Positions 25,559 through 26,217 of a stretch of 37,828 bases of DNA are shown piece after piece. The translations under genes and the position numbers were made by a program. Position 1 is the first letter of the stretch. Every line of letters starts with the position of its first letter. The stretch covers positions 1 to 37,828 of the forward strand of contig MNWN01000013.1 in the NCBI GenBank assembly GCA_001872545.1, in the 5' to 3' direction. The notes beneath the pieces are model-generated. The model saw only the letters and a list, made by a program, of their open reading frames with translations, was not told the DNA's origin and did no database searches. The stretch is from Parcubacteria group bacterium CG1_02_58_44 (GTDB lineage Bacteria > Patescibacteriota > Patescibacteriia > SG8-24).

Positions 25559-25587
25559 TTGACGGTAATCTAAGCCCGGTCTATACT
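25559..25587 (+). promoter_or_regulatory. Sigma70-type promoter for the fMet tRNA region (TTGACG-N17-TATACT)
   Basis: Near-consensus hexamers with 17-nt spacing. Confidence 0.75.
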
Positions 25588-25615
25588 CTCAACCGGTGAT
25601 TGATTTTCACTTTAC

Positions 25616-25655
25616 GTAGCGGGGTGGAGAAGTGGCATCTCGCGAGGCCCATAAC
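25616..25655 (+). pseudogene. Truncated duplicate of tRNA-fMet 5' half (ends at the anticodon arm)
   Basis: 40-nt identity to 25747-25786; lacks T-arm and 3' acceptor strand. Confidence 0.85.
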
Positions 25656-25657
25656 TT

Positions 25658-25725
25658 AGCTGAAGTCCGAGCGAAGTGAGAAACTTCAGCTTATCCCGGA
25701 AGTCCGTGACTATCCGGGACCTAGG
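25658..25725. repeat. Two tandem palindromes inserted between the fMet half and the intact fMet
   Basis: AGCTGAAGT...ACTTCAGCT and TCCCGGA...TCCGGGA; second resembles the 33.3/34.5 kb repeat family. Confidence 0.7.
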
Positions 25726-25748
25726 AACAGTCAAAGATTGAATTATGT

Positions 25749-25823
25749 AGCGGGGTGGAGAAGTGGCATCTCGCGAGGCCCATAACCTCGAGATCCCGGG
25801 TTCGAATCCTGGCCCCGCCACCA
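25749..25823 (+). tRNA. Initiator tRNA-fMet (CAT)
   Basis: Full cloverleaf, A1-C72 mismatch, CCCATAA anticodon loop, GTTCGAA T-loop, encoded CCA. Confidence 0.92.
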
Positions 25824-25824
25824 A

Positions 25825-25860
25825 CAAAAGCGCCCGAGTTAGTCTCGGGCATTTTTGTTG
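25825..25860 (+). terminator. Terminator after tRNA-fMet
   Basis: GCCCGAG-TTAGT-CTCGGGC ATTTTTG. Confidence 0.8.
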
Positions 25861-25971: not shown

Positions 25972-26014
25972 TGGTAGCGAGGGTGGGAATTGAACCCACG
26001 ACCTAGGGCTTATG
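25972..26014 (-). pseudogene. Duplicate of tRNA-Met 3' half (anticodon CAT to CCA)
   Basis: 43-nt identity to 26141-26183; no matching 5' half. Confidence 0.85.
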
Positions 26015-26140
26015 CGGGCGTCGCGGAGCGACGGATGTGGAGAGGTCTTGCCGCCGGGTGCGGCATGGTTCATTTCGCACAAGCCCTAGGGTCCGCTTCT
26101 CTCTACATGACAAAAGCCCCCATTCAGGGGCCTTTCGTCA

Positions 26141-26217
26141 TGGTAGCGAGGGTGGGAATTGAACCCACGACCTAGGGCTTATGAGTCCCTCGCTCTAACC
26201 AACTGAGCTACCTCGCC
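26141..26217 (-). tRNA. tRNA-Met (CAT; a tRNA-Ile2 CAT assignment is not excluded)
   Basis: GGCGAGG acceptor, GCTC/GAGC D-stem, CTCATAA loop, GTGGG TTCAATT CCCAC T-arm, CCA. Confidence 0.9.

Follow-up and report, generated by a model that had tools for sequence, protein, structure and literature searches.

A half copy of an initiator tRNA gene beside a REP-like palindrome in a Patescibacteria genome, and partial tRNA copies across its lineage

Introduction

The described systems closest to the locus reported here are the REP and REPIN repeats with their Y1 (RAYT-type) transposases, islands integrated at tRNA genes, the Rickettsia palindromic elements (RPE) and the rtT repeats of Escherichia coli tyrT. 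The anticodon and T loops of tRNAs are the classical crossover sites of tyrosine integrases. To our knowledge, no 40-nt duplication has been described for REPs moved by Y1 transposases, and the rtT repeats of tyrT have been an oddity unexplained for decades. Members of the IS200/IS605 family make no larger target site duplications (PMC2817692).

Here we describe an initiator tRNA (tRNA-fMet) locus of Parcubacteria group bacterium CG1_02_58_44, a 1.06-Mb draft genome of 51 contigs (G000). The window, that is, the whole stretch of DNA analysed, is its 37,828-nt contig C42 (MNWN01000013.1). As a single locus this is a modest insertion-duplication; its value is as an entry to a lineage-wide pattern of tRNA-adjacent structured elements with the layout of rtT.

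Results

The first part of the tRNA-fMet gene, from nucleotide -2 to 38, is present twice on the plus strand of the window (25616-25655 and 25747-25786), with 40/40 identity and a spacing of 131 nt. The full direct repeat (25612-25655 and 25743-25786) is 43/44 identical, its 40/40 core being 2 nt of flank and tRNA nucleotides 1-38, and the upstream copy breaks off at the first base of the 3' strand of the anticodon stem. Repeats of at least 12 nt occurred in 55 of 997 random windows of the same loci; the fMet repeat measures 44 nt. Two plus-strand hairpins separate the copies. Hairpin 1 (25658-25691) has a 9-bp stem, AGCTGAAGT/ACTTCAGCT, and the loop CCGAGCGAAGTGAG, and is paired in the computed fold, while hairpin 2 (25694-25719; 7-bp stem, TCCCGGA...TCCGGGA) continues into a tail, CCTAGGAACAGTCAAAGATTGAATTA, that reaches 25745. 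The intact initiator tRNA-Met gene (CAU) follows at 25749-25823 on the plus strand (53.7 bits in the tRNA scan), with an encoded CCA and an acceptor stem that ends in a mismatch, and behind it a predicted intrinsic terminator at 25832-25855 (plus strand), which is also kept in the sister species. An exact half-tRNA repeat enclosing two palindromes had been claimed in an earlier, sequence-only reading of the window, and is borne out here at both the repeat and the hairpins; the covariance-type scan of the interval that it had proposed calls a single intact tRNA-fMet and gives the half copy no tRNA score. The working tRNA is, on the best reading, the intact downstream gene.

The same reading had placed a near-consensus promoter 5' of the broken copy, and a sigma-70-type promoter, TTGACG-N17-TATACT, is indeed found there by promoter scan (25559-25587, plus strand); its hexamers and spacing are identical in the sister. 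The scan found no plus-strand promoter within the insert. The sister keeps the TTGACG-N17-TATACT promoter, which lies ahead of the half copy; the two copies are therefore likely to be co-transcribed, with transcription presumably running through the half into the intact gene.

The sister species, Candidatus Uhrbacteria RIFOXYC2_FULL_47_19 (G001), belongs to the same genus, and in the alignment its fMet locus differs by one 131-nt gap, which is the empty site. When its 62 nt 5' of fMet are compared with the two upstream regions in the window, 47/62 positions agree ahead of the half copy and 23/62 ahead of the intact copy. Matches to the fMet locus were obtained in 66 of 95 genomes, and the only one that spans the half copy is the window's own; this, together with the empty site, is why we regard the insertion as derived. 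The search of relatives for the half tRNA with its insert, suggested from the letters of the window, thus returned the window alone. Neither did the junction match any of the viral contigs searched, and a search of the plasmid collection gave ordinary tRNA matches only.

These comparisons bear on two further readings of the repeat. An unusual intron or split tRNA would have the first half spliced to the 3' half over a 131-nt intron. The break does adjoin the canonical 37/38 site, as had been pointed out before, and in the predicted fold the outer half is able to pair with the 3' half; as a sign of an intron, however, the position loses its force among the other cases in this lineage, which break in the D-loop and T-loop. 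With a complete, uninterrupted gene at 25749-25823, no intron family matched and a sister genome that does without the insert, we consider splicing highly improbable. The genome is a draft in 51 contigs, which would leave room for an assembly artefact, but the two copies are distinguished by one flanking base and separated by a REP, and many independent assemblies contain analogous structures. An error of this kind is therefore very unlikely.

Hairpin 2 fits a high-copy palindrome pattern, TCCCGGAN{4,30}TCCGGGA, with 103 copies in the host genome compared with 1 for the reversed pattern, and 97 copies in the sister, controls being 0-1 throughout. In four other genera of the family the same pattern gave 12 (G003), 6, 0 and 0 copies (the last two in G005 and G007). 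The tail ACCTAGGAACAGTCAAAGATTGAATTATG resembles those of other members, for example ACCCAGAAGCAAAAGATTGAATCATGG beside Gly-GCC of the sister. The sister also has a copy related to hairpin 2 with its tail, at G001:C26:23981-24038. The family's conserved head, TGTCRT, is missing from the fMet copy, which reads AGCTTAT instead, and hairpin 2 is for this reason not counted among the typical members. Judged by their sequence, hairpin 2 and its tail are a divergent member of the REP-like family of the genus. Hairpin 1 is not a clear REP, its loop resembling the inner part of the REPs of this genome.

Matches to the Y1 transposase domain (PF01797) comprise five partial ones in the host, three of them at contig ends, and two full-length ones in the sister. 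The partial domains at contig ends are those of C46, C28 and C33, which suggests that repeated transposase genes broke the assembly there. By analogy with the RAYT literature (PMC2817692), these Y1 transposases may be what moves the REP of the genus. The 40-nt duplication would in that case need an extra step, because IS200/IS605 transposases make no larger target duplications.

We favour, with somewhat better than even confidence, the explanation that the fMet locus is a REP-containing insertion-duplication in which the intact gene works and the half copy is likely inert, and that it is one case of a process acting across the lineage. A REP-like palindrome of the genus, accompanied by another hairpin related to REPs, would have inserted at the tRNA-fMet gene, and the event would have doubled the gene's first 38-40 nt, giving a copy that breaks off at the anticodon arm and an intact one. 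The duplication step may have been, for example, template switching at the hairpins or a prior tandem duplication. From then on the intact gene would be transcribed from its old promoter, behind the half copy and the hairpins, and RNase P, which normally cleaves at the tRNA 5' end and here at that of the intact fMet, would be expected to cut off the half-copy leader. That a small palindromic element inserted and the tRNA half was duplicated had been the simplest inference from the window, and it is now supported by the sister's empty site and by the assignment of hairpin 2 to the REP-like family.

Alternatively, the whole fMet gene might have been duplicated in tandem, the 3' half of the first copy then decaying or being deleted and the REP arriving later and independently. 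Gly-CCC of the host, where an element follows a second tRNA copy that is degenerate but almost full-length (33.1 bits), would be a stage of this kind, and Val-TAC of the sister also looks like a degenerate copy. At fMet, however, the identity ends sharply, with 40/40 positions giving way to no resemblance to the 3' half, and the junction falls in the anticodon arm in a lineage where junctions in tRNA loops are the rule. We therefore regard tandem decay as rather unlikely.

The half copy is probably inert, and is taken as such because relatives do not conserve it, although its inertness is not assured, because its acceptor strand outcompetes that of the intact copy in equilibrium folding. In the fold of 25596-25823, pairing between the acceptor strand of the half copy and the 3' strand of the intact gene reaches 0.98, which leaves 0.02 for the intact acceptor helix, compared with at least 0.99 for this helix once the half copy is removed; the program also folds the T-arm of the isolated tRNA poorly. 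A functional leader could thus base-pair with the intact tRNA's 3' portion and so control the folding or processing of that tRNA, or give rise to a stable half-tRNA RNA. The predicted capture of the 3' acceptor strand would agree with such a role, as would a fold z-score of -3.7 and the precedent of E. coli RttR, an annotated RNA ending at the CCA of a duplicated tRNA 3' end. Against this, any sequence repeat gives rise to such pairing, co-transcriptional folding and RNase P could act before it forms, and neither the sister species nor any other genome examined has the half copy. A functional half had been the more speculative suggestion of the sequence-only reading; the predicted capture speaks for it, its absence in relatives leaves it out of favour, and we consider it distinctly unlikely.

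A second tRNA-Met gene (CAU), intact by tRNA scan, lies about 300 nt from fMet in convergent orientation (26141-26217, minus strand). It too is accompanied by a partial copy, missed by the sequence-only reading: its 3' half, from the anticodon to CCA, is duplicated at 25972-26014 (minus strand; 43/43 identical) and is likewise broken at the anticodon. At 26076-26090 (minus strand) the sequence of the Met anticodon stem recurs in inverted orientation (CCTAGGGCTTGTGCG) and forms an inverted pair (93% complementary) with the start of the duplicated 3' half. The same tRNA-Met gene has a different, T-loop-type element in the sister (L150) and an anticodon-type one in G010 (L232). A motif near GCCCCGC precedes the duplicated half in the anticodon-type 3' elements of Arg-TCT in G001 (L149), of Met in G010 (L232) and of Met in the window, and these anticodon-type elements are perhaps a second element family.

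Partial copies were surveyed by seeking, for each tRNA, copies 14 nt or longer and no more than 450 nt away. Adjacent copies accompany 15 of 41 tRNA genes in the host and 10 of the 29 sampled in the sister, and 2 of the 30 sampled in G010, a genome of the same order. They break mostly in the D, anticodon or T loop. D-loop breaks lie at 17 in Ser-GCT, 18 in Gln-TTG and 16 in Glu-TTC; those in the anticodon arm at 38 in fMet, 31 and 39 in Phe, 35 in Met and 36 in Asp; and those in the T loop at 57 in Ala and Lys, 58 in Asp, 55 in Gly and 60 in Ile. The closest analogue of fMet is a 5' copy of tRNA-Trp in G049 that holds a palindrome inside its anticodon loop, and 5' copies of tRNA-Thr in G044 have palindromes in the D-loop. 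The fMet locus exemplifies a process at work across the lineage, by which tRNA genes gather partial copies of themselves joined to structured elements; it is the rarer 5' version, the 3' type being the commonest.

Other arrangements were also seen. Both the host and the sister contain a tRNA-Phe within a tRNA-Phe, in the order 5' half, insert, intact gene, insert and 3' half, with flanking inverted repeats (L085, 3390-3620; L147). Tandem units of tRNA 3' ends are found for Asp (152 nt; L119, G003), Glu (166 nt; L117, G007) and fMet (three units of 68 nt; L050, G061).

In the common 3'-type element, the tRNA and its terminator are followed by an arm and by a core near GGGCGGCGAGAGGACnnnGAGCTGGCGnnnGTCCGGTGCGCAGCCGCCCCGGTACCCGAGTCGGAGCGAGGGG, after which the 3' end of the tRNA appears again, starting at about position 57 and in many cases including the terminator. 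The arm is an inverted copy of the T-loop and T-stem of its own tRNA: arms fit their own tRNA with a mean score of 7.0, compared with 4.8 for other tRNAs (0 of 20000 permutations), among 23 elements of which one is E. coli tyrT and several taken singly fail to fit their own tRNA better. Both partners vary in seven base pairs of the core, compared with 2.5 in shuffled alignments (0 of 500) and no more than 3 in slid versions, a count made on alignment A2 with a structure drawn from the same sequences, which favours it somewhat. RNAalifold gave few pairs on a hand-anchored alignment of the elements.

A 19-base piece of the core, which contains no tRNA sequence, occurs at 17 places in 264 billion bases. 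Twelve of these are in Patescibacteria or unnamed MAGs, all 12 beside a tRNA with a 3'-end copy; the other five are in other taxa with no tRNA near, which is about chance level (estimate 8). Of 381 genomes sampled from the class, 35 have matches to the covariance model R1; a tRNA with a partial copy is present at 28 of the 30 loci fetched. A phylum-wide sample gave matches in 12 of 380 genomes, eight of them outside the class, with a tRNA and partial copy at six of the seven newly fetched loci. The viral contigs gave no match to the 3'-type core.

Another reading takes the fMet copies as halves of an attachment site, left by an integrase-bearing element that has since been deleted. The loops concerned are the classical crossover sites of tyrosine integrases, and a relict integrase does adjoin another tRNA, about 200 nt from tRNA-Glu on C23 (fragment at G000:C23:54132-54227; tRNA-Glu-CTC at C23:53836). 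That relict, however, is the sole integrase match in the genome, with none at the fMet locus, and the junction is in no viral contig. The inserts are moreover short at many tRNAs and related in their core from one tRNA to the next, each with its own tRNA's sequence duplicated. An integration remnant is accordingly very unlikely.

Comparison with E. coli was made in both directions. The Ala element of the host matches RtT (RF00391) over the full model at 26.3 bits (E 0.0036 in 301 bases); the gathering score is 45 bits, which none of the 3'-type elements reached, this being the best. Run over 95 relatives, the RtT model found nothing at E 0.01. In the reverse search, R1 scored 10 bits in E. coli (E 0.77), yet at the right places. 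The tyrT-tyrV region has its parts in the same order as the 3' type, the annotated RttR ending at the CCA of the tRNA fragment, and the 3'-type elements show the RtT architecture: an arm complementary to the tRNA 3' end, a structured core and a fragment from T-loop to CCA. The fMet insert itself was considered as an RtT RNA (RF00391) and rejected, the duplicated part being the 5' half and not a 3' end with CCA after a core.

In E. coli K-12, partial copies are present at 6 of 29 tRNAs, all but one from lysV and argVYZQ, in a non-random sample of five 50-kb pieces picked for their tRNAs. Elements resembling rtT, with duplicated tRNA 3' ends, follow lysV (L235, 11254-11600) and occupy the argVYZQ spacers (L238, 27785-28650).

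Discussion

Structured elements and broken tRNA copies next to tRNA genes are widespread and largely unexplained in these bacteria. No description of them was found in a search of the literature outside subscription journals on CPR tRNA introns, rtT and tRNA repeats. A practical lesson of the fMet locus is that a half-tRNA sequence met in a genome of this kind is not necessarily a gene or an intron. Elements with the rtT layout recur at many different tRNA genes of these reduced genomes, with an arm that matches each tRNA, and so provide many natural replicates, sister empty sites included, which allow their origin as mobile elements, by template switching or as functional RNAs to be tested. 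More tentatively, and as a conjecture we would not yet rely on, Patescibacteria and a few E. coli tRNA operons might harbour a superfamily of small structured elements whose points of entry are the D, anticodon and T loops of tRNA genes, with an arm complementary to the target guiding entry and the gene kept whole by duplication of a part; the fMet half would then be the trace of a 5' mode.

Set beside the described systems, the fMet insert is closest to REP/REPIN with Y1 transposases in carrying a short GC-rich palindrome present at about 100 copies per genome and confined to related genomes, and in the presence of Y1 transposase domains, partial in the host and full-length in the sister, that may act on it. 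It differs from them in adjoining a duplicated tRNA half, in its head, which is not TGTCRT, and in its 40-nt target duplication. As in tRNA-integrated islands with attL and attR, a partial tRNA copy borders the insert and the break is in a tRNA loop; unlike them, the insert is about 90 nt, the duplicated part is 5' and the locus has no integrase. The Rickettsia palindromic elements, compared by description only, are alike in being palindromes inserted into genes (PMC3733652). For the 3' type, the likeness is to RtT/rttR of tyrT: the tRNA 3' end from T-loop to CCA follows a structured core, the left arm of the core is an inverted copy of the tRNA T-stem, GATGAGAA stands at the end of the arm and tandem repeats occur. 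The scores, by contrast, are below gathering, and the 3'-type elements are spread over many tRNA genes. Because the RtT model found nothing in the relatives, we claim kinship for the architecture only: this is shared between the 3'-type elements and E. coli rtT, and we make no claim of homology.
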